In this document: positions 23,791 to 53,227 of the stretch, in pieces
Numbering within the stretch: position 1 is the first letter of the stretch
How the letters are laid out: every line of letters begins with the position of its first letter
DNA from: Stropharia rugosoannulata
Taxonomy: Eukaryota > Basidiomycota > Agaricomycetes > Agaricales > Strophariaceae
Assembly (NCBI GenBank): GCA_028532985.1
Contig: JANCIK010000010.1
Span: 992,001 to 1,056,000, forward strand
Length of the DNA stretch: 64,000 bases
Direction: 5' to 3'
Notes under the pieces: model-generated
What the model was told of the DNA's origin: nothing
Seen by the model: the letters and a program-made list of their open reading frames with translations, nothing else
The model's database searches: none
Position numbers and translations under genes: made by a program

Positions 23791-24045
23791 ATTTGCTGAT
23801 GGTATCCCCTCCGTCCCTCATTTGCCCATTCCAAACATGGGCAACCATAGTCTAGGCTTATATAATAATGAGTCTACACTGTTAGTAAGTATATAATAAT
23901 ATTACTAGTAGTAAATTCAGGCCGAACATCACTCAATATTTCGGCCACATATCATGAATACAATATAAACATCAATGACTACAACAACTACTGTATTGTA
24001 TGTATGTATATTAAATTAAATACAAAAGGGAAGAGGGCAAGAATT

Positions 24046-27000
24046 TCAAGACATTTGCAGACGAACTGAACGACGAATTTCGGCATCGGCATCGTTTTGG
24101 TCATCGGCCTCGTGAGACTCCAACGTAACTGATGCACTGCGACCGGCCCCAGAACGGGACTTCGGCTTGACCGACGTCGACCTCGCCCGGGACTTTGAGG
24201 CAGCGGGAGCCTTCACAGAAGTAGACCGTCCCCTTGACTTGGGCGCTGCCGCAGCCTTCACCGAGGCGGACCTTCCTCTACGCTTTGGGGAAGTAGGAGT
24301 GTGGCCATCCATGCCGACAGGAAGAGGCGGACCAGCACTACCACTTCCTGCCATAGCCTCCGACAACTGGGCCACAGCAGTAGCATCAGCCCTGATCACG
24401 GCCAGCCCTACACTTTCATGAGGGCCACTTTTGGATCCTTCTTCCACAACATTCTCCCAGCCGACATGCTGCCTTTCCTGTGGTGAATTCAGAAACACAA
24501 TAGGAGGCAGCTCCATCTCCTTGTGCAGTGGCTGAATGACTTCCTGGGGCTCCGGGATCTCGTCATAGCTCTCCTCCGTTAAAGGCGACAGTGGCTGTCG
24601 CATCGGCCCGATCGGAAAGTTTCGTATCAACTCGGAAAATGTTGAAGCATTGAGCGAAGGGGCTGCGGCCACGGGAGAATCAACCACATTTGCGGTGTCA
24701 TCGGCCATGACAACATCTTCGCCCGCTTGCATTTTGGGCACGCCAGTCATGGGAGGGGCAATGTGGGCCTTGACGCAGGAACGTTGGACAATCTGGCTTT
24801 CAGCAAGATCCCTTTCCAAAGCTTCCAGTGTAGGCTCATCAACATTTTCAAAAGCGCGTTCGGCCTCGATACATTCCATCCCATCTGCTCAGAAGGCAAT
24901 GTTTTCAAAACAGACATGCAAATCAGAAATATAATGTACTTACTCCGGATTGTGAGATCAGTGCGGAGCGCATCCAACTCACCCAACTCTGCGGTTAGCT
25001 CCGCCGATCCCTCCTCAAAAGCGAATTCTTCAGCATGCGAGCTAATGTACTTCGCCCGGGATTTTGCTGCCGTGATAACATTGCACGATTGCGCATATAC
25101 TGCATCAGATATGGACTGGGCACGACGCAGTGCCGCCTTGACAATGATGTCAGCTGTCCTACGAGCATGTAGAATGTCATTCTCGGCCTCATCTTCCATG
25201 GCCGACTTCGTTTTGGACACCGAGGGCGCGCCGATGCCGAGAGCTGTCTCAATGACAGCTAAGCAAGTGGCTACGTCTTTCTCTAGATTGAAAATGCGTG
25301 CCTCCAGTTTATCGTATGTTTCTTTTAATTTCTTCGCATCAGACCCAACCTGCATCACACTTTCTTGAAATGACGCACTCGTGGTATAGAACTTCATTTC
25401 GGTCTTATTTTTATCCGAATAAAAGTATGACAGTTTGTTCTCGACATCGCGCAACCGATAGTCCATGCTCATGAACATATTTTCTTCGTATTCACCTAGT
25501 CACATGGTGGACACTTGTTTAGATAAAATGATGCCGCATGAATGGACAATGCACTTACAAGCAACATGTGTTCCTGCCGCCATCTCAGGTCGGCGGGCAT
25601 GCATGGGTACTGCACGTGCGTCGGCCACATCAGTAGCATGCCCCTCGGCATGTGGAACAGTGCGCACGTCGGCCTGGAACGCAGCGGGCGCTTCGGCATG
25701 CAGCAAAGTGCGCGCTTCGGCCAGATATAGACCCCCCTTTCTAACCGTGGGTGGTGGAAGGATATTCGGGGCGGGAGCGGAGTGTTGCCTTTCGGTGGCC
25801 ACCAATTCCGGAGCTAGACCAGATGCACCTGAGCGACATTCTTCTTGGACTTGACGAGCGTCTGAAACATATATTGTGTGCTCAGACGCTCTGACTTGAG
25901 GCTGAAAGGGTGCGTCCACTGTCTCGTTAACTGTTGCCTTGGATGATGATGCTTTTGCGTTGGAGTTGACAAGGACGTATGGGACACCTTTGTCGCGAAG
26001 GTTCGACGGTCCAGCAATATTAGTATTGTCTATGCAACAGTATTAGAACTAGTAAAAGTTCAATGATAACAACTTACCTGTTGTTTGGCCACCCCCTCGT
26101 GTTCGGCCACCTATCGCTTTTCGGCCACCTTCAGGTGTTCGGCCACCTGCCGACGCTCGGCCACCATCTTTCATCGTATTCTCTTCACGTATCCCTTGCA
26201 TCAGTTCTGATGGCAGAGTGACGCCTTTTCCTTTTGGCCGAGGCTGCTCTGGTGGTAGGATAGCCCGCTCTTTGCCTTTATTTCCAGATGAGGCGTCTGC
26301 AGGTGGGAGTGTCGCCTCTGCTGTCTTCGTGGCCGGGACCGAGCTCTTGTGGACAGGTGTTTCCGTGGCAAGCTTGGTATTCGCAGTTTTGTCGGTCGTC
26401 TTCTTCGTGGTCTTTTTGGCTCGCTCCGGCGCTTTACGCTTCGACGTTTTGTGGCCGCCTTTCACCGTCCGTTGTTGTGGCTGGGGGTCGGAGCCTAATA
26501 ATGTCATATATTGTAAGAATTTCATAATACCAAGCAATTAAAAACAGACTTACTTTCGTTATCGTCATCTCCTTGATCTATTTCTCCAGGGTTTTCGTCC
26601 ATATCTGGTACTCCAACTTGTACCGCATCCTTCCAATTCCCAAGAGAGCAGCTGGTTTTTCGATTCGCACACTCCATACATGCACTCTTTTTGTTCTTGC
26701 TCGGCGCGAGGTCTTCCTTCACATGGCAACGCTGCTCACTCTTCACACACCACGAGCATCGGGGCGACCAGAATAAACCCTTGAGTGCCTTCTTTGGAGG
26801 TCGGTCTCGGCCATGTTTCTCCCCTGACGTTGTATCTTCCTTCTTCTTCTTGGTCGCCGGGACTTCTGCATCAGGAGATGCCTTTCGCTTTCCTTTCTTC
26901 GGCTGCAAAGCTTGCTCGGTATCTCGTTTCGTCTGGTCTTTGTCTGCCTGTCGCATTCGGTTCGATGGGTCCATTGACATATCCCGTATACTGGATGCCA

Positions 27001-27429
27001 GCGAGACGACTTCGGGCGAGGGTTTAGGTCTGCTGGAGCGATCCAAAGAGGGCCCACCCTGGCCGAGACCTTTTCCGGTGCCCCTTGCCTTCAATTCCTT
27101 TGCATAGAACTGCTTGGCCGTGGCAGGAAATTCGTTCGCGCGGGTGTTTTTTTTGATTGCACGGTAATCCCGAATAAGGGTTAGGAATGACCAGCTGTCC
27201 CAGTCCACAAATTCGGCGAGGGGATCATTGCTGACAGAAGCCTTTACCTAGGTGAGAGATACATGAGATAGTATGAATATTCCTGACGCACCAATTCCGC
27301 CTTTTCTGCCCGGATCAGCTCATCAAAATCCTCATCCCCCAGACCTTGCCCGAACACATCTTCGAGGCATTGGAGCCGGTCCTTGAATTTTGCAATCTGC
27401 TTCGAGGTCAGTCGGAGTGAAGAAGACAT
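24046..27429 (-). CDS. M3-A: Zn2Cys6-like cluster and coiled-coil protein of element A
   Basis: Six exons by my model: 27429-27292, 27247-26554, 26494-26078, 26029-25559, 25495-24944 and 24884-24046. All phases fit and give about 1036 residues. The start is the ATG that aligns with the start in copy B. Residues about 60-75 (WDSWSFLTLIRDYR) match B. A six-cysteine cluster lies at residues 210-246 with spacing C-x2-C-x6-C-x15-C-x2-C-x6-C and basic residues around it (CSWCVKSEQRC ... CMECANRKTSC). The Zn(II)2Cys6 class has the same spacing with a shorter loop. Lys-rich stretches (likely nuclear) precede and follow it. Exon 5 is a long coiled coil (LAVIETALGI, ARRTADIIVKAALRRAQ). The C-terminus has Ser/Arg repeats (RGRSASVK, RGRSTSVK). 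It is probably a DNA-binding accessory protein. No enzymatic motif was seen. Confidence 0.75.
26087..26167 (-). repeat. Micro-array of the element A motif inside M3 coding sequence
   Basis: Four TCGGCCAC words and one decayed TTGGCCAC lie at about 15-17-bp spacing. On the coding strand they are GTGGCCGA-type words and encode a Gly-Gly-Arg series (GGRTPEGGRKAIGGRTRGG). The DNA word is better conserved than the intervening codons. Confidence 0.7.
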
Positions 27430-27629
27430 GTTTGTGATAATCAGCAGGAGGGATAGGAATAGCACAGACGTGTTACAATTCAAGTATGGGGTAAAAGCAG
27501 GTTGCAACGGCTACGGAGCATTCAACAAAGTCACGTTACCCGCGGCGCGTGCCGACCCGCAACTTGCCATGTGAATGTGCTAATGTTCGGCCAGTGCAAG
27601 TTTTTCTTTCACTCTTTGGTCTGCACATC

Positions 27630-28148
27630 ATGACACCCGCAGTAACTACAGTGAACAAGGAAAATCTTGGCCTTGCACAACAGCTCAGCAAACTCCTGGT
27701 TGCTGCAAGGCAGGAATGTGCGGTGAGGAATGCCAGCACTGAGGTAAATTCCTTGTTCTCACTTGTACAACCATTGATGGAATGTATTCTGTAGCTGCAG
27801 CCGGTTGTGGGCCGACGCTATGTTGAAGTGTCGCCATTGCGTGTTCGAACACCCAATGATCCAGTAAGCAGGATCAGGCTTCATACTTTGTTCGGCCCGG
27901 GAACTGATCGGCCTCGATTTTTGTAGCCATTGTCTGACCAAGAATTACTAGCACTACATGCTCGCATTCTGGCCTACCAGCGTTTGGATGGCATTTCATA
28001 CCTGCAGGCTTGCTCACTGGTTTACTTCGAGGAAATGCGCAGGCTGGAAATGGCTCAGGAAAAGAGTAGAGGATAGCAACAATTGAAAGACATGGCCGAA
28101 CAATTTAAATCAGAGTTGCAGGATTTATTACAAACAAAAACAAAGTAG
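27630..28148 (+). pseudogene. M4-A: small KDZ-element protein with a premature TAG
   Basis: Three exons match copy B: 27630-27743, 27795-27863 (69 nt in both copies) and 27927-28148 (222 nt in both copies). The product would have about 134 residues. Shared features are NAST at the end of exon 1, SPxRVxxPNDP in exon 2 and QELLALHARILxYQ in exon 3, followed by a charged helix. Exon 3 has an in-frame TAG at 28074-28076 where copy B has TGG (Trp), removing the last 24 residues. It lies between M2 and M3 but on the opposite strand, the strand of the transposase. No known domain. The last exon looks helical, perhaps a coiled-coil partner. The gene is too fragmented by introns to be obvious from ORFs alone. 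Confidence 0.65.
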
Positions 28149-28208
28149 ATACAATGGGGCTTACAGAACAAAGATCGGCCTGAACTTATTTTTGTGATAA
28201 TACAAGTT

Positions 28209-30724
28209 CTAATGTTTGCTTCTGCTACGAGTGAGACATTGTGTTGAACCATCGGCTTTCTTCTCAGCATTTTTGCTCCGTGTCTGTCGTTGGGGTAATT
28301 GAGGTTCTTCAATATTTTGTTCCAATTGATCTTTCTTTGTCCTCCTTCCCGCTTGTTTTTTGGGCACTGATTGGGAAGTGGCCATGCTAGGGCCAGACGG
28401 CATAGGTGATGCAGATGGCCTCGGTGTGGGAAGCATGGAAGCAGGTGCGTGAATAGGGTTCAATGTAGGTTGCTGAACTACACTGGAGCTCTGCCCACAT
28501 GCCAGCAGTGGATTTATCTCAGCATGTATTGTCGGCACCGCCATCAATGGCTGTTGACCCCACACTAATGGTTCTCCAGGTGGGGTGCCTGATGGGGGTG
28601 GACGTGTGAGTGGTGACAGGTACATTCCATGCGCTGGTTGCAATGCAATGTCCCAAGAAAGTGCATTTTGTGAAGGAGCAATTGCGGTCAATGATGAAGT
28701 ATCGGGCTGATGGCCGACGCTTGGCAATAATAGACGTGGGTCGATGTTTGCATCTGTCTGTTGATTCAATAGTAAGTATGGCTTGCTAATAGGATGATAC
28801 CACTTACTATAACATCAGCATGCGGAAGTTTGTTGTGTATATATGGCTGTGCAGCTGCCGATACAGATTCCGCAACGTCTGGCCGAAGTGAAGTGGCTGA
28901 ACTTTGAGCATCAATGGTAGGCAAGGCCGACATATCAGAGGGTGTGGATACATCTCGCCCATCCCATGGAACAAGTGGTACACTTGGCTGCATATCTTGT
29001 GATGAAGGTGGTTCAATCTGAAAGGTAAACATGTATCCATCCAAGGACACAGGAGGCTCCTGTGGTGCAGTGTTGCTGTTTGACGATGAGGCGGCATGTT
29101 CTGCCTATGACATAAAAAGATCTGAGTAAAGACTTCCTTCCCACGACTACATGCATACTAACAAACAATGCTTTGAGTATCGGCCCCTGTTCGGCCAGGT
29201 CCCCACGCTTTGCCTTGCTCTTCTGCTGGTGGACTTTCTTCTTATTTTCCTTTATCACATCGGCATTATATTCTGGATCGCAAGGATATACGGCCCGTGT
29301 AAGCTCATTTTCATCCCCCTTTCTACTCACATTCACCATTTTAAAACGGAAAACGTCTTCTATAGGATGCACATATTGACGTTCGACTATCCAAGTAATA
29401 AACTGGACCAAAGCGGGCTTATTGATTGCTTTTGATGACATAAAAGTGAATTTCGGAGGCAAGTATTTCTTGTCAATATAAGTTTTTGGCGAAGTAGTTA
29501 TATCGATCCAGGGTGCGGCTTGATATTTCATTTGACTAGCAACCGCTGTTCGGCAATGTCAATATTGATCGGGCCGACATGTACATCAGACTTACCATAG
29601 TGGGTGTTAATATACGCACGATACACGGCTGCTAGTCGCTTGCTACTGATAGTATAGAGGTCCGATGGAACATTAATTATCACAGGAAACTCTCCTCCTT
29701 CAGTTCTGACAGAAATGTCTCCGTTGGCCTCGGCAGGCCCAACTGGCGCGCCGATCACTTTGTTAATCTTGCGTGTGTATGCTTTTAAGCTCCGAAGAAC
29801 TTCATCACAAAGATCACCATACTCCTCCTGGAATGTTGGGCAATGTAAGCCAACTACTTTAGTTATATTGTCATGGCTATTGCAAGGGTGTAAAACTGGC
29901 AGTGAAAGGAACGATATGAGAAGCATGTACTCACGTGGTGTACCCATACTGAAAACCGTCATGCCGTCCTGCGGAGAATGTGACTGATAATAAACCCATT
30001 TCCAACCAATGCCGACGATCAGAATCAGCCACCCTGATAGTGCTATACTTCTTGCATCGCCTGAACAAAACATAAGAGGTCGATAAGCAAACCTTAACAC
30101 TATATTAACACAGAACATACTCGGCACGCAGTTCAAAGGGGAACCCTTGTTCGGCCATCCGACGCTTTTCGGCCACCAGGCGGTCAAGGTCTTTCGGCGC
30201 CATTGTCTTCAGCAAGTGTCCGATGGCTTTTGATTTAAAGGGAAAGTAGTTGTCTGGACAAACGTCTTCAATTGGTGTTTTATTTTGTAGACGATATATC
30301 TCCTTGTATACTAAATTGCGATGATTCATCCACAAGACTTCTGATATCTTAACAGAAAGCTTAGACAATTTCTTGCTAGATTTTGATCGCCAATTGTTCC
30401 TGATGTAATCCATCAAAGTCTCTGTAAAACATTTTAGTAACGCATATCCTGTTATTGCTTCGAGGCCGATACCTTTGAAACACCCCTCCTGTCAATGTTA
30501 ACTCTTCCCCCAGGAACCTCTGAGTCCCACTTCGCAAATAAATCTTCCAACATGCCTTCACATATAATTGCACGACGCTCGATTGCCGAAGACACTTTGA
30601 AATATTGTTCTCTGTGGTTGTTCATGATTCTCTTCTCATCATCTGAGTATCGCCGGTGGTTCTTCCTGTGTGGGCCGTGTTTACACGGTGGGTAGACTGA
30701 ATCTGGGGCTTCAAAGTAAGACAT
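28209..30724 (-). CDS. M2-A: conserved KDZ-element accessory protein, 728 residues
   Basis: Seven exons: 30724-30473, 30419-30121, 30060-29935, 29876-29596, 29545-29163, 29104-28808 and 28757-28209. They sum to 729 codons, all in frame. The start aligns with copy B and lies 193 bp from the divergent transposase start. Conserved blocks are RRYSDDEKRIMNNHREQYF, VKISEVLWMNHRNLVYKEIY, PDNYFPFKSKAIGHLL, DRRHWLEMGLLSVTF, APWIDITTSP with YLPPKF, and PPSGTPPGEPLVW near the Pro-rich C-terminus. A basic tract (KENKKKVHQQKSKAKRG) suggests nuclear location. The family recalls uncharacterised proteins encoded beside KDZ transposases in mushrooms, but I know no established function. The first 84 codons and exons 2-5 have exactly the same lengths as in B. 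No stop or frameshift was found in this copy. Confidence 0.7.
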
Positions 30725-30917
30725 TTGGGATGTTATTGTCGTTGAACGATCAATCAGGCTGCTTATAAGGTGTACACGCATCTTTAATTGATCGCATCAC
30801 ACGTTACATCCAACGTGTTGATGCATGCCTCAGCATGAAAATTGTGGCATGAGGACACCACGTTTTTACAAAACCTCATATATAATGCAAGACAGGAAAG
30901 TGTCCATTCAATACTCA
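30725..30917. promoter_or_regulatory. Divergent promoter between M2-A and the transposase
   Basis: The 193-bp gap between two divergent starts must hold both promoters. A TATATAA lies at about 30879-30885, 33 bp before the transposase ATG. The equivalent gap in element B also has a TATA-like run close to its transposase start. No TCGGCC word was seen inside this gap. Confidence 0.45.
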
Positions 30918-33900
30918 ATGGCATACAGTACTGATCGACCAAGCAAGCGCAGTAGGAAACAGAAAGGAACCATTTATGATTCCGATCCTCGGATGCAACC
31001 CGACGTGTTTTACAGAATTCAATCAAGCACTGTCGGAGGCCGTGATAGACAGATAGTCACCAAGCGCGGCACATCACACCAAGTTGCTACTGCCACAAGT
31101 CAGACGGCACCTAGTCAGGTCGACTTTGAGTTCTTGTCTGCTTTGCATTCCGATCATGCCAAACTGCAGCTGATCATTGAAACCGTGCATGCTGTGAGGC
31201 CGAAAAGGGTATGTTCAAGCCGATTGCATTGCCTCAACATGTATGCAACGTGCGCTAATTGTACATATATTCCAGACAGGGGAACAGTGCATTCAAGAGT
31301 TTGTTCAGCGTGCAAATCCTATATTGGCTGCTTTACTGAGCCGGGAAGCCTTGCCCTTGGGACTACAGACCTGCCGATCATGCGACAAGTCAAACTTTGC
31401 CCTATGGCGCTGCAACGATTGCAGTCTCCCAACATTGATGTGCAGAATGTGTCTGCGACTTTCGCACTGGGTCAACCTGTTTCATAGGGTAGAATACTGG
31501 GAAGGAACATACTTCAGAAAAGCCGAGCTATGGGAAGCAGGTTGCTACCTGCTCATAAAACACCAGGGCCAGCATACTTTGTGTTCACGTTTGAACCAAC
31601 AGGTTGAGTGGTTAGAAGAGAATGAGCACTACAGAGACTTAGCTGAGCAGGACACCTGCCGACATAGAGAGCATCACGAACCACAGGATAAAGGGGCAAA
31701 TACGGATATGCCAGAAATTCAGGCCAATGAATATTTCCGCGCCGAGGTGAATCCTGACTGTACCATGGCCGAACCCGACATGGCCGAAAGGGAGACCGAA
31801 GACACAAGTGGCCGAAATGAAGAGGACTACGACCGGTACTTTGACAAGGCCTTTTCGGCCGCCTTGAATCCTGATTTGCCAGAAGAGCAATCAGATGAAT
31901 TTGTGTTGGCTGAAGAAGAGCTGTGCATGATAGACGATGATGAGCTGGACTTGCAATTCGGAGTGAAACCCAGTTATCTGGCCGACCACCATCTGTCAGA
32001 TGCTGATTTGCTGCAAAATAATTATGTTAGAGTTGTCCACAATAATGGCTTACATCATTTGGCGCTGGTTACCTGCTCATGTGCACACACATCAACAGAT
32101 GGAGTCATATACAACCTCATTGCAGAACGTTTAATCCCGGCCAGTTTCTTATGCATTCACACAATTTTCTCGGCCTCTGTCCTTGATCATTATCGGCTCT
32201 GCAACTTGGAATTGAAGGCATCAGCTTATCAGTTCTTTTTAATGCTTCGTAGGCTCACGTCCCCCATGAAACCTTCAGGTGTTGCAAACATCTACAATAT
32301 ATTCAGGAGAATGACAAGGCTTTGGAGGTGGTTTAAAAAATTGAAATGGAGTGGGTTTGGGCACAACCAGAGAAACCCCATGAAGGTTGAGCCTGGAGAA
32401 TTAAGTATCTTTTGTCCAGCTTGCCCTACACCTGGAGTAAATTTGCCACCGAACTGGAAGGAACAATCACATGATCGGTCAGTATCTCCCATCTTTTCTG
32501 TGCAGAACAACAAGTCATTCTTTGTTTGCAGATTTGTATATCGGCGCATCTTCGTGGCCGATGGCAATTTTAAGGCCGATCATGTTAAAAATGAACGTGC
32601 CGCACCCGATATATGGTTGTCAGAAGGTGGACTTATGGATCCGGTCCACGACAATTATCAGGAATTTCTAGCCAGCGCGCATGAGAAATTGACGGTCAGA
32701 CATTTCTACATTCCAATATATGACTCAATAATTTATTCATATATGTTGCCTGTACAGAAAGCACCATGTGAAAACTCTTTCCGTGCGATAATGATGTCCT
32801 TGCTAGCTTCATCGGCATGTGATTGTACCGGGAAGGTTGCATTTGCATGTGCACGTCATGGATGCTACGCCCCCAATAGCCTTGTTGACTTGTTCAAGGG
32901 TGAGCAGCAAAAAAATGTCGACTATGCCTTGCTGAGGGCACTGGACACGACAAATGTCGACCCTGCCCAAGGGCTACTGATTATCTATGACATTGTTTGT
33001 CAATACATCATCTATCTCCAAGACTGCATTGGTGATAAACTACCATCGGGCCTCGACATTGATGCTGCAATTGGCCTATTTCATGTTCACGCACATAAAG
33101 ATGAATGCTTCTTCCGCTACGCAACATCATTTATTCCAGGGGCCGGGGTCACAGCAGGAGAGATTTTGGAGTCAATGTGGTCAACATTGAATTCGATTTC
33201 ACCCACTGTCAGAACTGCAACATTGGCGCACAGAGCAGAAGTCTTGGATGACCATTGCAACGATGCCAATCATAAAAAATGCCTCGGGATTGTGGATGCC
33301 CTGGTCCGACGACACGGTCACGCAAAGTTTGAATTCACCAAGGCCCTGGAGTACTATGAAAATCTCACAAGTTCCATACCTTCTGATACCATAGACTTAT
33401 GGACAAAGACAATTGAAGATGCCGAACGGTGCTGAAAGACAGATGTTTCGGCCATGGATATATATGCAGCGCAGATCAATTTGGGCAATGAGCAGGACCT
33501 GCAGTGGCCATCCCAGTATGTCCCTACGCCTATTGAACAATGGCTTGAACTGGCGTTTAATATTGAAGAGCAACAGTACGTGTTTCGTTGATATCAATAT
33601 ATGTGGCCGATTCCATGTTGGTCATTTTCGGGCCGAGATTGTTGTACTGTGCCGATTGATATGCACACACAATCACTGACCGATGCCCTAATTTCTGTAT
33701 TTTTATTCCAATGACGACTATGCTAATTCTTATTCTGTACATTGCAGGATGTCTATCCAATTTAGTATTCGCCGTTACTTCAAAGACAAGCGCGATTCAT
33801 CAATAGAATCCATTCAGAAATCACGTATGGCATTAATTCCACAGTTCACTTTGCTCTCACAACACGAAAAGAACATTGGCATCTCCCCCATTCCCTCTGC

Positions 33901-34925
33901 AAGCAGACAAGGTACAGCACATGTCACGGCTAATTGTGAAATTGTGGCGCAATGGGATGAGTTGGATACAGTGGAGAGGCCGGACCCGATTCCTGGAGCG
34001 TCTTTGCCTGGAACTGACCCAATTCCTGCTAATAATGTTGGCATCCCATTCGAGAAACATCATACATCAGGCCATCGCAAATCTCGGCAAGGCGAAGTTG
34101 ATGGAGATGTACCACCAGAACATCTTGAATTATATCTTCCGTCTTATCTCAATGTCTCACAGCAGTACCGGGAAGCAGAGTTGGCAATGCGGCGAAGACG
34201 AGCCCATCATTATCTTAGTCAGATTCGAGAGCTCATTGCGGAAAAGTCATTTAGATATACAGACCAACTAAGAAGCGCACCTCGCAAAGGTGTGAAGACA
34301 AGGGCAAGAACTACAATATCCAACCTGAACCATCAAATCTCCCACCTATGCCAAATATACACCTGGACACGGACTAGACTGGCAGTATTGGGCGCTACTG
34401 AACAAGATGCGCTTGGAATATACAAGGAATTAACCAAAGCAGATGTTCGGTGTAGTACAGCAATTCTACAGCCAAACCAACGCGGGTCGACCAAGCTTAC
34501 ACTGTCCTGGATATGGCAGTCTATCAACCGGCACTTACACTCTGGAGCTTCAATCAATATCAATGCTGAAGACGAAGCCACAGTCCTTGAATGTATGTTT
34601 GTACATAAAGTTCATTTTCTTGCTCCAACTAATGGCTGGCCGAAATCTGATTTTAGTTAAAAGAATTCATTGGCTGCGTGCCAGAGCCAGCAAAGACCGC
34701 TGGTGCGAGGAACGTGTTTTTGTCCAATATGAGATGCAATTTACCGTCCAGTACTTTCTGCACCGCAAAATGTTCTGGGCCGATGCAGTGAATGAGGTTG
34801 CCGACATTGCGCCCGGGCCGAGAGCATATGCACAAAGGAAACAGCAAGAATGGGACACCTTAGCAAAGGATGCCGATCATTGTTTTCGGACATGTTCTTC
34901 GGACTATGAATCACCGCTAATGTAA
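30918..34925 (+). pseudogene. M1-A: KDZ-superfamily transposase with one premature TGA
   Basis: KDZ (Kyakuja-Dileera-Zisupton) transposases move large DNA transposons in basidiomycetes. Exons are 30918-31208, 31276-32477, 32532-32694, 32758-33575, 33748-34592 and 34657-34925, summing to 3588 nt, exactly as in copy B. A CxC2-like cysteine cluster lies at about residues 130-170 (CRSCDKSNFALWRCNDC, CRMC, then H and W). Then come CPACPTPGVNLP, GNFKADHV, LSEGGLMD, PCENSFRAI, LLIIYDIVCQY, HAHKDECFFRYATSFIPG and AGEILESMWSTLNS, the typical KDZ core. At 33433-33435 there is an in-frame TGA (codon 778) where copy B has CGA, a C-to-T change at a CpG. The frame stays open for about 400 more codons, so the lesion looks recent. 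The ATG was chosen by alignment with B. Confidence 0.85.
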
Positions 34926-35011
34926 TCACATGATACATGTACAGTAAGATTCCGCTCGAAATTGAATGATTATCGTGATCGCGATCACTTGCTACCTCCT
35001 TTCTTGCCGCA

Positions 35012-36727: not shown

Positions 36728-36900
36728 GATAACTTTTGTAAACACAATTTGTACACTTTTAAACACAAAACATGAATCATAAGCATGTTCTGATGGATCG
36801 GCAACATCTTGGTTGTAAGATATCGGCATGTACATCGGTAAGCACGGTGGCCGATTTGAAAGTGGCCGGTGCAAAAGGAGTTGCCGATCGAAGGAAGGCT

Positions 36901-39424: not shown

Positions 39425-39426
39425 TA

Positions 39427-40177: not shown

Positions 40178-40179
40178 TA

Positions 40180-40460: not shown

Positions 40461-40936
40461 CCCGGTCATATTCCCGGAGGAGTGGGAAAACTGCGCGGGA
40501 AGGGGTCATCAATTAGGGTACAGAACTAGCACATAGTGTAGCTACATAGGACCGTACCATACGGTCCAGGGAACCACCCCAGTGTAGTCGTATGATACGG
40601 GTCAAGGGAACTCCCTTGTTCCCTCAAGAACATGTCCTAAACGAGAAATCTACACTGTGTACGAGTGATACGAGTCCAGGGAGGCCCTTCCCAGTTAAAA
40701 CATGGGGCCGATAATATTCCCCCTCACCACCTACGGCGGTCGGTTATACATTGGGGGCCGAGAATATCTTGCATACAACGGTTGGTTATCAGCGGACACC
40801 CATCCAACCAAATGAGTGCCTACGAAGTAGTCACATAACTAGCTGATGTACATGATATATAAGTTAATAGTGAAACGAGCAGTAGTAACAGATATGATTG
40901 AGTTGCTATGTAGCAAGGTCCAAGGTAACTTATTAA
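40461..40936. other. Left flank of element B, no gene
   Basis: It contains an ACCATACGGTCCAGGG word shared with about 22.57 kb, short repeats of GGTCCAGGG / GAGTCCAGGG type, and two GGGGCCGA words (about 40704 and 40756). It may include the left terminus of element B, but I could not find a matching inverted terminus because the right end of B is missing. Confidence 0.4.
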
Positions 40937-43241: not shown

Positions 43242-43319
43242 TTCTGCTGAGAGGGGGAAGTGATGGTAACAGGATAAGAAAGATAGCGATCACTAGTATG
43301 CAATTGTTCTACAAATACA

Positions 43320-46300
43320 TTATTCACGTGACATTATATCATTTATCGGCGAATCATAATCAGTGGATGCATTCGAGAAGCTTTGATCGGCTTTGTCAGC
43401 CATTGAAAACCAGTCTCGGCGCTTTCTTTCGGCGTACCCTCGAGCGCCGAAACTCATATTGGCAAACGCAGATATGGCATTTGCCCAGAACATTTGCCTG
43501 TGTAAGAAATACCTCACTGTCCATTGCATTTCATATTGAATGAATATGCGTTCCTCTCTCCATCTATCATGATTTGCTCTGGCTCGAAGCCAGTGAATCC
43601 TCTTGACTGTGAAGTAAATGAAATTGTCAATACTGAATCCAATAATAAAAAACACGGCATACATTCCAGGGCCGTGTTTTCATTTTCTACTTCTTCTTCA
43701 TGGACACTTATACCCGCCATGATACGCCGACTGACAGAATGCCAAATCCAAGATAGTGTGAGTTTTGTTGACTCCCTTTGATTTGGTTGCAATATTGCTG
43801 TGCTGCACCGTACATCGGCCTTGGTGAGTTCTTTGTAAATGGCAAGCGTGTCATTCTCAGTAGCGCCGAGAACAATGAGACGGTCTCTTGTCCACGCATA
43901 CATCTGACATAGGTGTGATATGCAGTGATTCAAGTCCACTATGATAGCTCTGGCTCGGGTCCTTACACCTTTGCGAGGTGCAGTTCTGATTTGATCAGTG
44001 TACCTGAATGATTTCTCGGCAATTAGTTCACAAACTTGACAAAGATAGTGGTGCGCTCGTTTGCGCTGCATGGCTAATTCAGCCTCCCTGTGCGTATCAG
44101 AGACATTATGATACGATGGTAGGAGCAATAGCATATGTTCTGGTGGAATATTGTCTTCATCGTCATTTAGTGTTACATTGGCGCTTGCCAATGCAGCTTG
44201 ACCTTCCTTCGTAGTTCGGTCAATCCTCACCGACTGTCGGAGGCGATCGAAAGGCAAGGTATTATTACCACTTTCGTTGGGTGGAGCTGCGCTAGATGTG
44301 CTGCTTTCTGTGTCCAACGTATCCCAGAAGGAGAGATCCACCTGTGTGCTGCATGGAGTCGGTAAATCTCGGCGCTCGGCTGAAGTGAGCGCAACAATGC
44401 CGAGCTGCTGTTGTACCTGTGCTAGTGCATTTAACTGAGTCAACAGTGATTCCCTAGCTTTTTGAATGGATTCTAGTGAAGCATCACGTTTATCCTTAAG
44501 ATATCGGCGAATGCTGAACTGAATGGAAAATCTGTGAATCCACCGCCGAGAAAATACACAATTAGGCGCACAAAGCAGATATATGTAAATGATTACTGAC
44601 TGTTGCTCTTCCACATTAAACGTTTGATCTAACCATAGCTCGACAGGTGTAGGGACATAGCTGGGTTCCCATTGAAAATCTTGTTCGTTACCCTTGTCGA
44701 TTTGTGCTGCGTAGATGTCCATGGCCGGAAGATGAACTCGTCGGCAGAGCTCGGCAGTCTCTATCATTTCGGTCCACTCGGCGATTGTGCTTGCAGGAAC
44801 GCTGTGTGATAAATTTTGGAAATACTCCAACGCCTTTGAAAACTCTGATTTTGCGAAATGGTGTCGGCGAACAAGGGAGTCAACAATACCCAAGCATTTT
44901 TTATGGTTGCTATCATTGCAGTGGTCATCCAGTACTTCTACACGATGAGCTAATGTTGCGGTCCGAACAGTCGGCGAAATTGAATTCAGTGTTGACCACA
45001 TTGATTCCAGAATTTCCCCTGCTGTAATGCCTGCTCCAGGAATGAAGGATGTGGCATAACGGAAGAAGCATTCGTCTTTGTGCGCATGCACGTGGAATAA
45101 GCCGATGGCAGCATCAATGGTTAGAGAGGTTGGAAGTTTGTACCCTATACGGTCCCTGAGGTGTACGATATATTGACAGGCAATGTCATAGATAAGAAGT
45201 AATCCTTGGTCAGGATCAACCTTTGTGGTCTCGAGAGCCTTGAGAAGCGCAAAATCAACATTCTTTTGTTGTTCGCCCTTGAACATGTCTACCAGACTGT
45301 TTGGTGCATAGCATCCATGACGAGAGCAAGCAAAGGCTATTTTACCAGTTCGATCACAGGCTGATGACGCCAATAATGCTGTCATTATGGCACGAAAAGA
45401 GTTCTCGCAAGGCACTTTCTATGAAGCATCGAGAAAGATATCATAGTTTCGGCATTCAGCATTCGAAGTAATTGTTGGTGGATGGCATTGCATTCCTTAG
45501 CGCCATCAAAGTCATCAACACAAAGCACTCACCGTATTCATTTCAATAGCCTTGTCCAAAAAGGCTTCATACTCAGAGTCTTTGGGATCCATGAGTCCAC
45601 CTTCTGACAGCCAAATATCTGTTGCAGAACGATCATTGCGGACATGGTCGGCTTTGAAATTTCCGTCAACAACAAAGATTTGCCGATACACAAAACTGTA
45701 AGATGTACATACATATGTGTTATATATAATATTGTGCGAGCAAGTATGACAGGCATCACTCACCTGTCTTGCGGTAGTTTAGCCTTCCAATCTCGGGGTA
45801 AGTTGACCCCAGGTGTTGGACAGGCTGGACAAAATATACACAACTCGCCCGCCGAGACTTGCATGGGGTTTGTGTCGTTGTGAGAAAAACCATTCCATTT
45901 GAGCTTTTTCAGCCAGTGCCAGATCCGAGTCATTCGGCGAAAGAGATTATAAACATTGGCCACCGCCGAAGGTGACATCGGCATAGTTATGCGGCGCAGT
46001 AGCATGAAGAATTGATATGCCGATGCCTTGAGCTCAAGGTTGCATAGCCTGTAGTGATCAAGTACTTGCGTTGTGAAGATGGTGCGCACTTTGACGAAGC
46101 TACCAGGCAACATCCTATGTGCAATAATGTCATATACCCTCTCATCAGTAGCACTACTGCGACATCCACAAGAAACCAGAGCAAGATGATGAAGGCCATT
46201 GGTGTGAATGACGCGAACATAGGAATTCAACAAGACATCAGTTGTAGGAACAATACCATCGAGCTCCTCTTGACTGAGGTACCTTGGTAGCTCAGAAAGT

Positions 46301-47270
46301 TCGCTGTCCAGCTCGTCCTCATCAACAGCTGCATTTTCATCATTAAACCAGGAGGAAACTGCTTCAGTTTGTGATTCAGGGTTATCGCCAGGAATACCAG
46401 CGCCGACCGCTGATGCAAACGTGGGACCATACACTTCGTCGTCAATGTCAACATCGGCATTCATAGTGGATGTCGGTGCAGTGTATCTTTTGGACCTGAA
46501 GGTGTTGCTTGAACCAGACTCTTGGCAGGCTTCTTGTTCTGCTTCATTCTTCCTAAGTTGAAACGCTCCCAACCTGGCAACCTGACTTTGCAGTTCGGCG
46601 CACATTCGAGGGTACTGTCTGTGTTTGACAAGCAAATAGCAACCTGCTTGCCATAAATCGGCCCTCTCGAAATAGGAGTTGTTCCATCGCTCAACGCGGT
46701 GAAAAGGATTTGACATATGAGTGTGACGAAGACAGCCACGGCAGACAAGGTCTGCATCAGTGCAATCTCGGCATTGCCACAACACAATCCTGGAGGCCGA
46801 ACAGGTAGGACAAGTGCGTGGCCCATTGCCCAATCCCTCACGTTCAAGAAGTGCCTCCAGGATGGGTTTAGCGCGCTTAACATACTCCTCCATGTAATCA
46901 GCGTTTTTCTTTTACAATGTTGGTTGATCAGTATACAGCGATCGCGTTACACAGAGGAATATACCTTTTTCTGGGCCGAGGGCCGATATGAGTTGTCACC
47001 GCCGATGTCGTCTATAGTCATCTCGAAATCCGGAACACATTCAACAGTCACAGACTTTGGTTTTTCTTGTGATTGTGGTTGCGCAGGACGATCTGCTAGG
47101 CGCTCATGAACAGGATTTATCCTCGTTTCCACATCCTTTTCAACGCCGTTCAGATATACTGTTTTGTTTCGAATCAGTACCGTCGGCTGTAGGCTGGGAT
47201 GGTCGATATTTTTTGCACCGCCTTTTCTCTGAGGCTTCTTCCTCTTTGCTTTCTCACCGGTTGAGTCCAT
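43320..47270 (-). CDS. M1-B: KDZ-superfamily transposase, apparently intact
   Basis: Six exons: 47270-46965, 46908-45764, 45695-45533, 45418-44601, 44531-43663 and 43606-43320. They sum to 3588 nt (1195 residues), the same total as copy A, with exons 3 and 4 identical in length. A CxC2-like cluster is in exon 2 (CPTCSASRIVLWQCRDC, CRGC, then H...H...W). Then follow CPACPTPGVNLP, GNFKADHVRNDRS, LSEGGLMDP, PCENSFRAIMTALLAS, LLLIYDIACQY, HAHKDECFFRYATSFIPG and AGEILESMWSTLNS. The C-terminus has FSIRRYLKDKRDAS, IAEKSFRYTDQ and VKRIHWLRARA. No stop or frameshift was found, and where copy A has TGA this copy has CGA. Protein identity to A is high in the core and low at the N-terminus, so the copies separated long ago. 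It is probably the only complete transposase in the window. Confidence 0.85.
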
Positions 47271-47466
47271 AGTAGAATGTGATCTATAAGTGTACACAAA
47301 TACGTAGCTTTTTATATAAGTTGTACTTACATGTGTATGCAGCATGGCGGCCTGCATGCAAAAAATCAGTTCGGCGAACAATCAGAAACGAAGCTGTCAA
47401 GCCTCATGTCACAAGTCCTGCTCATTAAAAAAGCATGTAACATAATCCTGGTTATCGACTGCCATC
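47271..47466. promoter_or_regulatory. Divergent promoter between the transposase and M2 of element B
   Basis: A 196-bp gap between divergent starts, the same size as in element A (193 bp). On the minus strand a TATATAAAAAG run (about 47308-47318) lies about 40 bp before the transposase ATG. One TCGGCG word lies at about 47371. Confidence 0.45.
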
Positions 47467-49877
47467 ATGCCTGCTTTCATCGTAGCAGATATCAACACTC
47501 TGCCCTGCAGACATGGAGGAAAGCTCAACCGGCGAAAATATTCAGAAGAGGAGAAGACCATTATGAACAAATTCAAAGCCGCGTATTTCACTGCGCCGAC
47601 CATAAATGACCGCCAAGACATCCTTTGCGGAAAGGGTGGCATGCTGGAAAATCTCTTTGCATTTTGGGATTCCAATGGACCCGACCGTGATTTTGATCAA
47701 GATAGGCATATATCCAAGGTATGATCCATTTATCTCTCTAGCCCCGATCGGCCTACATTGTCGGCCTAGACTGTGGTTGACTACATATGAAATAATTGGC
47801 GCCCGCAATCAATAAAAAGAATGTCGAAACTAAACGTGAAGATTTCAGAGGTCTTGTGGTTAAAGCACAGTGATTTGGTCTACAAAGAAATATACAGGCT
47901 TCAGGGAAAAGAAGCTATAACTGACACCTGTCCAAGCAATTACTTTCCCTTCAAATCGAAGGCGATTGGGAATATACTAAAGGAAATGTCCGCCGAACAG
48001 TTGAAAATGTTGAGAGCCGAACAGACACAAATCGCGGATGCGGGATTGCCTTCAGACTTGCGTCCAGAGTAAGATTACTTATTATCAAACACATTTATCG
48101 TGTTATTGTGTTAATTTGTCTGACTGGTTAGGCGCTGCAAAAAATTGCATGTATCCAGGATCGCCAATAACGATCGCCGAAACTGGTTGGAAATGGGAAT
48201 GCTATCCCTTACATTTACTGCTGGTCGTCAGGACGGCGAACAGTTTTCTTTCAAGGTGTAAGCATTAACTAAATTGGTTCTTTAACATAGAATACTTATT
48301 CCTGACGATAGTCATGACAATATGAGCAAAACCCTCGGTGCTCGGTGCAAAAAATTTGTGGAAGAACATGAAGCCGAATGTGATTTAATTCAATGTCTAC
48401 TGCTTGCCTACATCAAAAAGCTATATGCTCTTGTCGGTTTAAAGCTGACTGTCAATGATGACGATGCACCATTAATTGTCATGAAAGCCCCAAACGAGTA
48501 CCCGGAGATCAAGTGTAATGTTTCTGATCTTGATCAAATGCAGCGTGATGTTCTGGAGAAAGTGTATGCCGATTATATCAATTATCATTATGGTATGTTT
48601 CCATTCTCGGCGCTGCGGTCATCGGCTCTGAATCGATGTTGCAGAACTTGCGTCTAACCACCAATTCAAATCGGCGCCCTGGAAAGATCTCTGTTCTACT
48701 CCAAAGTATACCTATGTCAGCAAGGAATACCTGCCTCCAAATTTCGTCTTCAGCAATTATAAAGAGATGGGGAAAAGGCAGTTTATTACCTTCATATCGT
48801 GGATTATTGATCGACAGACTGTCCACGGCATTTGCAATGCATTTCGATTTAAAACAATAAACAAATCGAGGAAAGCAAATCAGGAGGCTCATGAAACTGC
48901 ATTTTACTTCGATGATGAAGGTTTTGATGCTAGTAAGAACGAAGCTAACAAAAAGAAAGCCGACCGCCGAAGCGGAAAGAAAAAAGCAAGTGTTGCAGTG
49001 CAAGGTCCCATTCTCATGAATTTGGTTGTAAGTTTCAATGGCATTACATTTCTTGATTACACTTATATCATTAACACAGGGAAACTCTCTTCCTGGCCTC
49101 ACTGGGCCGGTTGACATTGGAACAGCTGCGAGGACAGCGCCGACCGCCGGGACAACAGACACAATTGCAATACATACACCACCACCGCCGACCGCCGGGA
49201 ATGTCCCCATATCTGAAACACTCTCCCGTAACACTCCAACTGATACACGACCCGATATCAGTGAATTCACTTTCACATTCCCTGTGCAGCCAAATGCCAA
49301 TGAGCCAATGCCGAATGCCGAAAATGACGTGGTCACCTATGCTTTGCATCAACCAACGCCGGACGCCGACATTGACTTCACCAATATCGATCCACGTTTA
49401 CTGGACATTACCCATTCTTCCCCATCTGATCGACAGGTTACTCCTGTCTCAGCACCAACACAACATGGTGTAATAGCAGCACACCAGTACTTGGGCCCAG
49501 TCATTGCTTCCCCTCCTTCTGGTGCCCCACCCGGCCCTCCACTTGTATGGGAAACACAAACAATCATGACTATACCACAGCCCGCCCCAATTAATCCACT
49601 TCCAGCCTCCGGACTTGGACTGACCAACATAGACATAACAGATGCTATGTTCGGCGATCGGCGATCGGCGGAGGAGGCGACGACAAGCTTTCCAGACCAA
49701 GGAACAGGCCCATCGTTGAGCGCCTTGCATTCAATTTCACGAGAATTTCCCTCATCACGCCAGCCGTGTATTGCAGCACCAACCAAAAAGAAAAGAATTA
49801 GAAAAACAGATGCAGAGCTGTTACAGCAGGCTACTGAAGAATACCAATCAAAACCTGCAAACATGCGCAGACATTAA
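47467..49877 (+). pseudogene. M2-B: KDZ-element accessory protein, premature TGA in exon 2
   Basis: Exons 47467-47718, 47770-48068, 48132-48257, 48312-48592, 48645-49027 and 49080-49877. The first five have exactly the lengths found in A (252, 299, 126, 281 and 383 nt); the last corresponds to exons 6 and 7 of A without the intron. Exon 2 begins TVVDYI, then TGA at 47788-47790 where A has AGG, then NNWR. Downstream the frame is open to the end. Conserved blocks match A: RRKYSEEEKTIMN, VKISEVLWLKHSDLVYKEIY, SNYFPFKSKAIG, DRRNWLEMGMLSLTF, APWKDL, YLPPNF and SPPSGAPPGPPLVW. If the ATG at 47821 were used, a product lacking about 100 residues could still be made. Function unknown. Confidence 0.7.
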
Positions 49878-49961
49878 TATTAATGTACATTCAGCGATCG
49901 AATGCTACGGCGCAGTTGGAGTCTATATTTATGATCGGCGATCGATTACATCGGCACAGCT

Positions 49962-50511
49962 CTAGTCTACATCTCTTTGGAGTATTTGTAATATATCGTT
50001 CTTGAATTGATTTCCTGCCTTTGACAGTTCCTGCCACTCTTCACTTCGCTTCTTAGCCAATTTTAGTTTTTCTAGCTCTTCAAAGTACACCAAGGTGCAT
50101 GCATTCAGGTATGTTCTGCCGTCCAATTTCTGGTATGACAAAATTCTTGCATGCAATGCCAACAATTCTTGATCAGTGAGTGGCTGATTGAGATTCAGAT
50201 CATGAATGCAAGGCTCATAGACAAAGACATGACGTTGAACTCACCGGATCGTTCGGCGATTGGACACGCATCGGCGAAATTTGGATGCATTGACGGCCCT
50301 GAAGAGGTTGAGGCTGGGGAGGGGAGGAGATGAGACATAATCAAGATAAGAAGAAAAAGAAGGGGGCATATACCATTGTACTTGCATTGGAAATGTTACA
50401 TTCCAATCTGCTGTATTCTAACAGCTGTTCAAATTTTTGAGCCAATACATAAATGGCATCTGCACCGATAGCGGAATCAGACATTTTTTGAGTAAAGAGA
50501 GAACGTTCCAT
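49962..50511 (-). CDS. M4-B: small KDZ-element protein, intact copy
   Basis: Exons 50511-50374, 50313-50245 (69 nt) and 50183-49962 (222 nt). Exons 2 and 3 have exactly the lengths seen in A. The product has 142 residues, or 132 if the second ATG (50484) is used, which fits the A start better. Conserved features are FEQLLEYSRLECNISNAST, SPMRVQSPNDP and LTDQELLALHARILSYQKL, then a charged helix. It is read opposite to M2 and M3 and on the same strand as the transposase, lying in the gap between M2 and M3. No known domain. Its retention with exact exon lengths in two diverged copies argues that it is a real gene of the element. Confidence 0.65.
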
Positions 50512-50797
50512 CCTGTTAGCCGAAGTTTTTTTTTATTTGACACGTGCAGCATTTGTCATATCTCGGCTCCCGGCATTGAGGCAATTGAGCAAGGCAGCAT
50601 CATGTAATTCCGGCAGACTGCACCACAAGCCGATGTTTAATATCACATGCACGTTGTGGATACTTATTTGCACCTCGCCACGTGATAATGTTGACATCTG
50701 CACTTTCGGCCCACGGCGCTGCAACATCTTCACTCCTCTCTTTTCCCTCGCGTATTCCCACTCTCTGCTCCCATTCAACCACAGCCGATCACCCATC

Positions 50798-53227
50798 ATG
50801 TCCGCCCACCAGAGTGAATTAACTCTTGAAGAGTTTGTCGCCGTCATGGACCATCTGGATGCAATCTTTCGGCAGAGTGTGCGCGACCGGAACTTGGACG
50901 AGGTGCTTCAGGCAAACGGGGCCAAAATTGTGAGCTGTCAACGTAAGCATGCTGCTATTCCTGTACATTTAACACATTTTGCAGGCAAGACTTCTTCAAG
51001 AACCGGTTGGGAAAACCGTCAAATGGGGCCGATGGTCATTTCCCTCCCTTCATAAGCGCTATCGGGAGGTCATTCGCCAGACCACGCAGAAGCAGCGTGC
51101 GAGTGCCCTTAGCACATTCTACGCCGACGAACTCAAGAGGTGGATTGCGGATGCTAACAATGCAGAGGCAGAGGTGTCTCGCCGACAAGAGCGGTCGGCA
51201 GCTTCTCATGATCAAGGTAGCGAAGCCGTGGCGTCTTTGGAATCAAGCATATAACAACTCTCGATGGATCCTGGCAGCAAGCAAAGGGAAGCCGTCCCAG
51301 AAAAGAAGCAGGTAAAGAGAAAGACCGCAAACGCCGACAGCGCTCCCGCACCCAAGAAAAGAAAGAAGGCTAGTGGTACAGCTGATGGGGAAGAAGAAGA
51401 ACACCAACAGCGACAGCCTATAGCCGCGCGTTTGGAGGTGGAGGAAGCAGAAGGGCTATATTGGGTGCCTGGGTGCAAGTGGTGTCGCAACAAAGGCATT
51501 GATTGCCGCGTGAAGTTGGAACGCCGAGCCGATAGAAAGACGGTCGCCTGCGTTGCGTGTGCGCAAAGGAAAACATCGTGCTCTCTCAGCGTGGAGCCGT
51601 CAATGAAGGCTAGGTTTCCCAATCAAGGGCAAGCCGAGCGGATATCCGAAGAGGAGGAGGATGAAATTGAAGGTAACGTACTTCACCGAGCACCGAGAAT
51701 ATGCACTGACCAACCATGATCATATTGCAGCATCAGAACCGGAAGAACCAGCCCCCAAGTGTACTGCTGCGAAGAAGACAGCTGAGCAACTGAAGCCCCA
51801 ACCTCGGAAGAAGGTCACAAAAAAAGCCGCACCCGCAGAACCAGTGGAGACGGAGGAGGAGGAGGAGGTTTCACTCCCTCCTCGACCAAAAGTGCCGAAA
51901 TCGAGAAGGCGGACAGCACTGCCATCACAACTGATGCTGGCCATCCGTGCAGAGCAGGAGGCACTGCCAAAGGCGAAGAAGGGGACTCGCAAGCAGGCCT
52001 CAAAAGTGGTTCCACAGAATGCTGAGGCAGGCAGCTCAACTCAGCAACGCCAAGCGCCGAGCCCTGTGTGCAATGCAGAGGCTAGCAGTTCCACAGCTAT
52101 CGAGTGAAGGGTACCCACCCCCACCCCTGCCCCTGCCCCTCAGATGCGCATTATCCACACTGCGCAAACCATTTATGTTACACTGCCCGGAACACATGGG
52201 AGAAGCATTGCTGTTGCAGAACGTGTTCCAGAGCCGAGCGCCGACATCTCGCCTGAAGCTGGAATGGTCCCAAGTCCAAGGCCAATTGCCGAATCCTGCC
52301 AGCAGGCCCAACTTGCATCAGGACAGCATAGGCTGGAGAGCCCTGCAGAACAGCCCACTGCACCTCTCCCTGGCAGTGGACATCGCACTCCGGAACACCT
52401 GCAAGCGCAAGAGCACACGGTCGCAAGAATGAGCGATTTTGTAAGACAGCCCGTGCAACCAGCGCCGAGCGCCGGGCCCAGCACCAGGCCCTTCACAGCT
52501 GCTGAGAAAGGCAAGGCCCGTGATCTTGGGTCAAGAGCGCCGAGCGCCACGCCCAGCACCGGGCCCTTCACAGCTGCTGTGAAAGGCAAGGCCCGTGATC
52601 TTGGGTCGGTTGAAGCTGAGGGTTGGGGTTCGGCCGACTCACTGCAGAATTCGATTCCGGCCCCCCAGTCATCATCCATTGGTGAGTAAATACCTTAGTT
52701 GTAATAACATCCGCTTAATCAATCCTTTTTCTACATAAGAAAAAGGATTGCAAACTTTCCTTATCACACTGGACAACCGCATGCGCGAAGTGGAGAAACA
52801 AGTCGCATACGTGTACGGACAGCGGATGTATACACACGGTGTAGCAATGCAACAGATCGAAAAAGTGTTTGAGCAGTTCCGCGCAAGGGCATCAGGGCTG
52901 GACGAGGTCATTGCGCAGCATGAAGACCTGCGACGTAATCTGGAAGCCTCGACCGCCGAACAGCTTGCTGTCATCGAGGCGGCGCTCGGCATTCGCCAGA
53001 AGTCAACGACTGTAAGCGCCGGCAACAGCAGCGCATCATCAGACCCACTCAGTCCGGACGAGCATGTTCAGCAAGCCCGGCGCACCGCGGATAAAATCAT
53101 ACAGTCCGCCGAACGCCGAGCCCAAGTGATTTCTGATGCTGCGTATGCCCAGGCGTGCAGTATTTTGTCCGCTGCGAACTCATATGCGCTGAAGGTCCTT
53201 GTTTGGGTCTGGTCAAGTGCTCAGTGA
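50798..53227 (+). pseudogene. M3-B: Zn2Cys6-like/coiled-coil protein, premature TAA and truncated 3' end
   Basis: Exon 1 is 50798-50929 and exon 2 50985-51672. Later exons start at 51731, about 52143 and about 52740. Exon 2 matches A (KWGRWSFPSLHKRYREV) but has a TAA at 51252-51254, in frame with the downstream ATG at 51264, where A continues RDMSMDP. The cysteine cluster at about 51474-51581 is C-x2-C-x6-C-x14-C-x2-C-x6-C (CKWCRNKGIDC ... CVACAQRKTSC). TALPSQLMLAIRAEQE matches A exon 3. The 52.14-52.69 kb part is Pro/Ala-rich with two copies of a SxTGPFTAAxKGKARDLGS unit; its join to the exon before needs a frame change. The coiled coil (LAVIEAALGI, ARRTADKIIQSAERRAQ) breaks off at about 53190. 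A protein starting at 51264 could retain the zinc cluster. Confidence 0.7.

Follow-up and report, generated by a model that had tools for sequence, protein, structure and literature searches.

Why should two related transposons that lie 4 kb apart in one fungal genome each be filled with a short DNA word of its own? The question is posed by a stretch of 64,000 nucleotides from Stropharia rugosoannulata (assembly GCA_028532985.1, contig JANCIK010000010.1, positions 992,001 to 1,056,000 of the forward strand), here called the window, which contains two KDZ elements, A and B. An earlier note on this DNA had estimated about 50 TCGGCC and about 4 TCGGCG in A, and about 55 TCGGCG and about 10 TCGGCC in B. 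Counted on both strands, A (23920-36900) contains 53 TCGGCC and 10 TCGGCG, and B (40901-53200) contains 58 TCGGCG and 13 TCGGCC; the estimates for B and the excess in A thus hold, and only the TCGGCG of A had been set too low. The elements and their words lie as follows:

22540..37067, + strand: element A, a complete Kyakuja-type KDZ transposon with 5'-CA..TG-3' ends, placed by comparison with its 98% copy A3
40901..53191, - strand: element B, inverted relative to A, apparently cut off near 53.19 kb
23920..36854, 27 on + and 26 on -: TCGGCC words in element A, n=53
40979..53119, 28 on + and 30 on -: TCGGCG words in element B, n=58

The density of the own word is 4.1 per kb in A and 4.7 per kb in B. 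The sharp drop outside the elements that had been noticed by eye is real: the 4-kb spacer between A and B holds 2 TCGGCC and 1 TCGGCG, and the window beyond elements and spacer 0.28-0.38 TCGGCC and 0.09-0.33 TCGGCG per kb. Base composition alone predicts about 5 words in each element (53 against 5.2 in A, 58 against 5.1 in B), and the G+C of both is similar to that of the surroundings. Under a second-order Markov null TCGGCC is the top hexamer of A (53 against 9.7 expected, z 13.9) and TCGGCG that of B (58 against 5.8 expected, z 21.7), the best background hexamer reaching z 5.8 under the same null. Because TCGGCA is also in excess in A (32 in 23798-37067; 25 in exons against 8.9 after the codon shuffle described below, z 5.8), we write the word of A as TCGGC[C/A]. 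B additionally contains 21 TCGGCA and 17 TCGGCT, the window outside the elements having 0.2-0.4 per kb.

Could codon usage account for the words? The earlier note had argued that it could not, and the excess indeed persists when synonymous codons are permuted within non-overlapping model exons, which keeps both protein and codon usage (500 shuffles; exon borders are approximate, coming from a simple gene finder of our own). In A, 40 TCGGCC stand against 10.4 in the shuffles (maximum 19, z 10.3), with the word of the other element near null (TCGGCG, 9 against 7.7). In B, 52 TCGGCG stand against 8.7 (maximum 19, z 15.0), and TCGGCC is again near null (10 against 7.6). The own word exceeded codon-preserving shuffles in seven of seven elements of this genome (z 8.8-19). 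A relic copy, L049 (C13:2003337-2006900), was rejected as a natural codon control: heavy CpG-directed C-to-T change has left 8 of 85 CpGs in its longer match, and it is therefore uninformative on codons.

Model exons hold 44 of the 53 TCGGCC words in A. Per kb, own words inside and outside model exons come to 4.0 and 3.8 in A, 5.2 and 2.3 in B, and 4.7 and 5.5 in K2, a KDZ element elsewhere in the genome. They occupy every reading phase and both strands, the use of both orientations being as the earlier note had it. Their spacing is indistinguishable from random in six of seven elements and slightly more even in K2 (P 0.026), and regular phasing was accordingly rejected. With spacing mostly like random and words on both strands, inside and outside model exons, it is density and not position that looks selected. 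A few words of A and B lie within short tandem arrays; 54-bp and 75-bp tandem repeats in the transposase and gene 3 of B (window 41669-42067 and 52461-52607) hold some TCGGCG words. Some short distances between words recur and may be preferred, namely 12 bp in K2 and 18 and 24 bp in A.

Are words confined to these two copies? A transposase search of the genome gave at least 102 matches from the best 60 of 181 candidates scored, and words were surveyed at 20 KDZ places (loci of 3.5-5.2 kb, all in this one genome). At 17 of the 20 the own word of the place coincides or overlaps with the top hexamer (z 6.9-17.4). At C12 and C12b the own CGGCAA ranks second (z 7.9 and 6.3) behind CGGCGA, another CGGC hexamer. 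L035 is a place without an own word; it has 1 CCGGCGG, 4 CTGGCGG and 4 CCGGCAG, a pattern that looks like decayed words. Among 20 control pieces of the genome, 11 of which come from the left of the window and overlap one another, the top z was 4.1-6.2 in 18, and 7.3 and 8.8 in two.

The words go by family. TCGGC[C/A] is the word of A, A2, A3 and C8; TCGGCG that of B, C9t, C4 and C1b, and of the transposase loci of C1a, C5a and C5b; TCGGC[G/C] that of C9m; GCGGCAA that of C12 and C12b; CCGCGGC, which is weaker (17 in 10.0 kb), that of C10x; and CCGGCGG that of K2, K2b, K2c, K2d and, in another subgroup on C7, of the gene 3 locus. All family words have CGGC in common. Copy number ranges from 17 to 66 per 10-14 kb, and rises when either permitted end base is accepted; no counts were taken from a width-14 motif model, which registers palindromic words twice. 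K2 contains 66 CCGGCGG and 3 TCGGCC, C12 contains 48 GCGGCAA and no TCGGCG, and GCGGCAA occurs 0-4 times in the other counted word-bearing elements. The expectation that other KDZ copies would carry dominant words of their own is therefore borne out, but not that each word would be a variant of TCGGCN.

How did the families come to differ? Of the A words alignable to B, 0 of 4 fall on a B word; of nine alignable B words, none falls on TCGGCC in A and one falls on TCGGCG in A. A and C8, which have the same word, hold 3 of 11 word sites in common, and B and C9m 4 of 13 TCGGCG sites. As so few alignable sites are common between families, we conclude that each family gained its own word. The motif that "switched in one base" of the earlier note thus describes the situation only in part, given GCGGCAA, CCGCGGC and CCGGCGG elsewhere and sites that are mostly non-homologous, which speak for new gain and not for a change in place. 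Shuffles did not give counts equal to those observed, and KDZ copies and host DNA do not all carry the same hexamer. Selection for the words in the elements is well supported, chiefly by the codon shuffles and the independent gain of words, and less by conservation.

What could read such words? A, B, C8, C4, C9m, C12 and K2 (read over 14-16.5 kb each) all contain two genes besides the KDZ transposase. The last of the three, gene 3, encodes a long protein and lies opposite to the transposase in A, B, C8, C4 and C9m and in the same direction in C12 and K2. In A and B the parts are:

22533..22539: left target-site duplication of A, AGGGGTA, 7 bp
37068..37074: right target-site duplication of A, AGGGGTA, 7 bp
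22619..23797: insertion inside A, missing from copy A3, with 0 TCGGCC and 1 TCGGCA; an internal negative control
30825..36727, + strand: transposase gene of A, a 10-exon model of about 1777 amino acids with CxC2 (PF18803) and KDZ (PF18758)
28229..30758, - strand: gene 2 of A, no Pfam family found, 5' end uncertain
24046..27396, - strand: gene 3 of A, for a long protein with zinc cluster, 5' end uncertain
26648..26758, - strand: zinc cluster of A, C-x2-C-x6-C-x15-C-x2-C-x6-C
40937..47283, - strand: transposase gene of B, with KDZ (PF18758) and CxC2 (PF18803), start uncertain (model start 47642)
47486..49877, + strand: gene 2 of B
50798..53142, + strand: gene 3 of B, for a zinc-cluster protein, C-terminal part apparently missing
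51474..51581, + strand: zinc cluster of B

The KDZ domain scores 146.6 bits in A and 138.2 bits in B (cut-off 26.6), and CxC2 is found in both. The earlier note had the place of A right (23.9-36.9 kb) and its full extent, which includes the insertion, too short. Copy A3 has CA..TG ends and the 7-bp duplication CTATTGT; a search for the duplication of A made without A3 gave chance-level pairs only and was discarded. C8 (duplication ACGAGTG) and K2 (GACAAAC, with 24 bases of perfect inverted ends) look complete. Element ends and a target-site duplication of B were sought and not found, and a duplication scan gave none for C9m and C12 and one doubtful candidate for C4. B is 88.7% identical to C4 over 7.2 kb; it is apparently cut off, because the homology with C4 ends near 53.19 kb while C4 and its words continue. 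Elsewhere in the window, 6906-9155 (+) is a 749-amino-acid reading frame, NLR-like, with TPR_12 above cut-off and weak STAND/NACHT/NB-ARC matches, and 61089-63806 (-) is part of a long terminal repeat retrotransposon polyprotein (RNase H, Integrase_H2C2).

Gene 3 is our candidate for the reader because of its domain type and the CGG core of the words; the Zn2Cys6 class is known to read CGG, and canonical clusters contact it through a half like the second half found here. A gene 3 match lies within 7 kb at 18 of 20 sampled KDZ places, and weak Pfam matches of parts of the gene to the coiled-coil families DivIVA and ATG14 suggest a protein with coiled coils. Where gene 3 was read, it mostly encodes a Zn2Cys6-like cluster; the examples include A, B, C8, C4, C12 (one Cys replaced by Tyr), K2 and C10x. 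It has two C-x2-C-x6-C halves; in 16 aligned peptides cysteines 1, 2, 3, 5 and 6 are invariant and the lysine of the second half is kept throughout, the exceptions being Tyr for Cys 4 in L060 and a second half with x7 in L042 and L066. Pfam Zn_clus (PF00172) was reported for 10 of 10 cluster peptides, with the lowest E-value in 9 and a score above cut-off only in L061, and a swapped order of the halves fits the best stretch in 8 of the 10 (not in L061 and L062). A low-confidence model (predicted local distance difference test, pLDDT, 63.6) gave weak fold matches, 13 of 27 being Zn2Cys6 proteins (Pho7 as the two best, Leu3, Ppr1, Hap1, Gal4, AlcR and Put3) and none at E <=0.001. The alignment gave no match among sequences of solved structures, and protein searches found no relatives outside this genome.

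The second half reads CxECANRKT-C in A and C8, CFEC[A/T]NRK-QC in the C1a group, CxACAQRKTSC in B and C4, CLECASGKHQC in C12b (YLEC in C12), CVACANRKAKC in C10x, and CSTCQ(H/Y)MYKKPC or CTTCQLYKKPC in the CCGGCGG group. In pairs with the same word the cluster is kept better than the remainder of the protein, the identities being 38/54 vs 94/258 in A/C8, 40/58 vs 183/463 in K2/C7-2364, and 40/54 vs 348/599 in B/C4. Between A and B, whose words differ, the cluster peptide shows 35% identity. L061 (C1:5014217-5017672) has the best Pfam score (22.3 bits), a 488-amino-acid open frame, no word, and no transposase nearby among the matches listed; it is possibly a freed host gene.

We hypothesize that each word-bearing KDZ family possesses a private CGGC-based word of 6-7 bp and its own Zn2Cys6-like reader protein with halves apparently swapped. 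The zinc-cluster protein would probably bind the word and, with targets distributed along the element, coat it from end to end. Less certainly, the coating may mark the element as self and protect its copies from silencing by CpG methylation. Where a family lacks TET/JBP, as A and B do, the coating would act by itself, and in families with TET/JBP it would guide the element's own dioxygenase. We give an even chance to the proposal that the zinc-cluster protein binds its word element-wide and marks self, most likely against CpG-methylation silencing. That half-swapped readers of private words direct demethylation, through the TET/JBP of the element if it has one, to their own family only, word and reader changing together, is a more tentative suggestion, which we rate as somewhat improbable.

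CpG pressure on the elements, TET/JBP neighbors and DNA methyltransferase matches lead us to prefer anti-silencing among the possible functions, with modest confidence. First, CpG methylation, or a similar mutation process, appears to press on KDZ elements, as judged from the differences between copies: 102 of 150 from A to A2 and 73 of 131 from A to A3 are C-to-T at CpG, although only 23 of 73 are so from B to C9t. Secondly, a six-frame search for Tet_JBP (PF12851) gave 32 matches in the genome, 31 above cut-off (36 candidates scored), 24 of them near one of 33 listed KDZ places outside the A/B clade. Of these 33 places, 24 have a Tet_JBP match within 9 kb, 18 a K2-type gene 3 match, and 13 both. 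In K2d the TET stretch and its surroundings contain CCGGCGG words too; a word-free length of about 2.25 kb, possibly an insertion, precedes them. Finally, DNA methyltransferase matches were found on C3, C4 and C6.

The hypothesis should nevertheless be interpreted with caution, since a number of observations weigh against it. A, B and the other A/B-clade places contain none of the 32 Tet_JBP matches. Better conservation of words proves to be mostly an effect of context. From C1a to C9m words are kept in 37/40 cases vs 67/132 for all other CpGs and 12/24 for CpGs in the same context (TCGG/CCGA; p 7.6e-5), and only in this pair does the difference from the same context hold. From K2d to K2 the figures are 35/38 words vs 61/96 other CpGs and 7/10 in the same context (not significant), from C4 to B 55/64 vs 176/279 and 47/58, and from B to C4 58/74 vs 173/279 (p 0.1) and 40/48, the same-context difference not holding in either direction. 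From A to A2, 30/33 words were kept vs 57/68 same-context CpGs; C12 to C12b leans the opposite way (23/32 words vs 210/249 other CpGs); copies less than 4% apart show no consistent effect; and the eroded relic L049 retained 0 of 4 words. The copy-pair comparisons gave no sign of mutational protection of single word sites, and the idea that words are footprints shielded from CpG decay was rejected, as young copies show nothing beyond context.

Nor do word and cluster always go together. The cluster frame has a stop in C9m and C5b, and the zinc-cluster genes L061 and L062 are without an own word. At the gene 3 loci of C1a, C5a, C5b, C9m and C10y the top hexamer (z 5.3-6.3) does not stand out clearly from background. 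C5a also carries an unrelated AGCGGA/CAGCGG repeat. C4 shows cross-talk, with TCGGCC (z 3.8) and TCGGCA (z 3.4) also in excess of its shuffles. C10x combines a CANRK half of the kind seen with TCGGC words with the word CCGCGGC, and there is therefore no simple residue code. One KDZ+TET element in which no cluster gene was found still has TCGGCG 15 times in 10.1 kb, a moderate excess. It is L077+L079 (C7:2426500-2436600), with gene 2, and GGCGCCGA was counted in it 10 times, partly clustered; being well covered, it led us to reject a rule of no word without a zinc-cluster gene. A further pairing of cluster and word at C5:3.738 Mb (L062, TGCGTGGC) was discarded, the word being limited to about 1 kb by the gene and recurring as a repeat. 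This repeat of about 1 kb, dense in TGCGTGGC in both orientations, lies mostly near contig ends (L062, L073 and places on C4, C5, C7 and C13); paired sites number 78 in the genome vs 1 for the reversed control. Moreover, A groups with C8, and B with C4, in the trees of all three genes (transposase, gene 2, gene 3), and word and zinc cluster follow the element tree just as transposase and gene 2 do, so that co-variation cannot yet single out gene 3 as the reader.

That the trees agree and the three genes travel together also fits a role in transposition, in which an element protein (gene 3, gene 2 or the transposase) would read the words and either hold the 13-kb element together or select its own family. 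The transposase has a cysteine cluster of its own, CxC2, and private words would keep families separate. Transposase sites are usually terminal, however, and here the words fill exons with no concentration seen at the ends; the TET/JBP genes near many relatives point to methylation instead. We consider such a role unlikely, though deserving of attention. The same sequence facts would fit a zinc-cluster protein that is a repressor coating sibling copies, the words being kept since uncontrolled families die out, and other DNA transposons are known to limit themselves. In that case, however, selection acting on individual copies would favor loss of words, yet words are many, and one diverged pair keeps them better than same-context CpGs; repression seems to us quite improbable. 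A similarly small chance is given to words recognized by a factor of the host instead of a protein of the element. CGG is read by zinc-cluster proteins of the host as well, but families in one nucleus have different words, with A and B 4 kb apart, and the insertion inside A is without TCGGCC. An artefact of composition, codon usage, repeats or CpG survival is most improbable: every word contains a CpG, CpG decay is active and a few words stand in short tandem arrays, but element G+C is like that of the surroundings, codon shuffles fail to reproduce the counts, the roughly tenfold excess over base composition in A and B is beyond what survival alone gives, and neighboring elements differ in word.

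The private code proposed here can be compared with several known systems. The cluster resembles fungal Zn2Cys6 regulators, such as Gal4 and AlcR, in its six cysteines in two C-x2-C-x6-C halves, its second-half lysine and its CGG-type words, and differs from them in that the halves are apparently swapped in 8 of 10 peptides and 9 of 10 fall below the Pfam cut-off. A bacterial DNA uptake word fills a chromosome, whereas here a word fills single transposons, in other organisms and to another purpose. The dense short word and its lineage dialects are alike in the bacterial DNA uptake sequences, as far as the part of that work covered goes (PMC7371117). Pho7 is described as reading TCG(G/C)(A/T)xxTTxAA (PMC5559640). 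The likeness to plant VANDAL elements raised in the earlier note holds in its logic, since families with words here encode a candidate DNA-binding protein of their own: VANDAL elements are DNA transposons that have a short motif and an encoded protein of their own, related families differ in motif, and in the sections consulted anti-silencing is shown for VANDAL/VANC of Arabidopsis (PMC5735166, PMC10398659), VANC21 binding YAGTATTAY in non-coding tandem repeats (PMC5735166). The differences are that the transposase of A and B is KDZ and not MULE-type, that their words run across exons on both strands and mostly without arrays, that the protein is zinc-cluster-like, and that anti-silencing, demonstrated in VANDAL, is inferred in A and B.

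With Kyakuja elements, as described in the parts covered of Kojima 2025, A and B have in common the KDZ transposase, and A also the 7-bp duplication and the CA..TG ends, and many KDZ places here have TET/JBP nearby; A and B differ from TET-bearing Kyakuja in having no TET/JBP match (PMC12730594). The main text of that study uses "zinc" 0 times, and its parts covered report no private words (PMC12730594). KDZ elements are also described, in the portions consulted, with CxC1 transposases in Cryptococcus (PMC12810828) and with CxC2 in Pleurotus (PMC7641404). The titles and abstract openings of the literature found report no private words or zinc-cluster partners of KDZ elements, which is no proof of novelty.

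In conclusion, the presented data suggest that short DNA words have been selected within coding exons along more than 10 kb of sequence, a situation for which we know of no parallel in eukaryotic transposons. Transposon-encoded TET/JBP enzymes of the mushroom type have been speculated to act without target specificity, in the sections seen of the 2025 study (PMC12730594). A private word with a private reader, if true, would offer an answer to how such enzymes find their own element, and would add an independent example of the VANDAL logic of plants. The idea lends itself to direct tests, about six predicted protein-word pairs being available in a single genome, and if binding holds these pairs would form a natural series for the change of zinc-cluster specificity.

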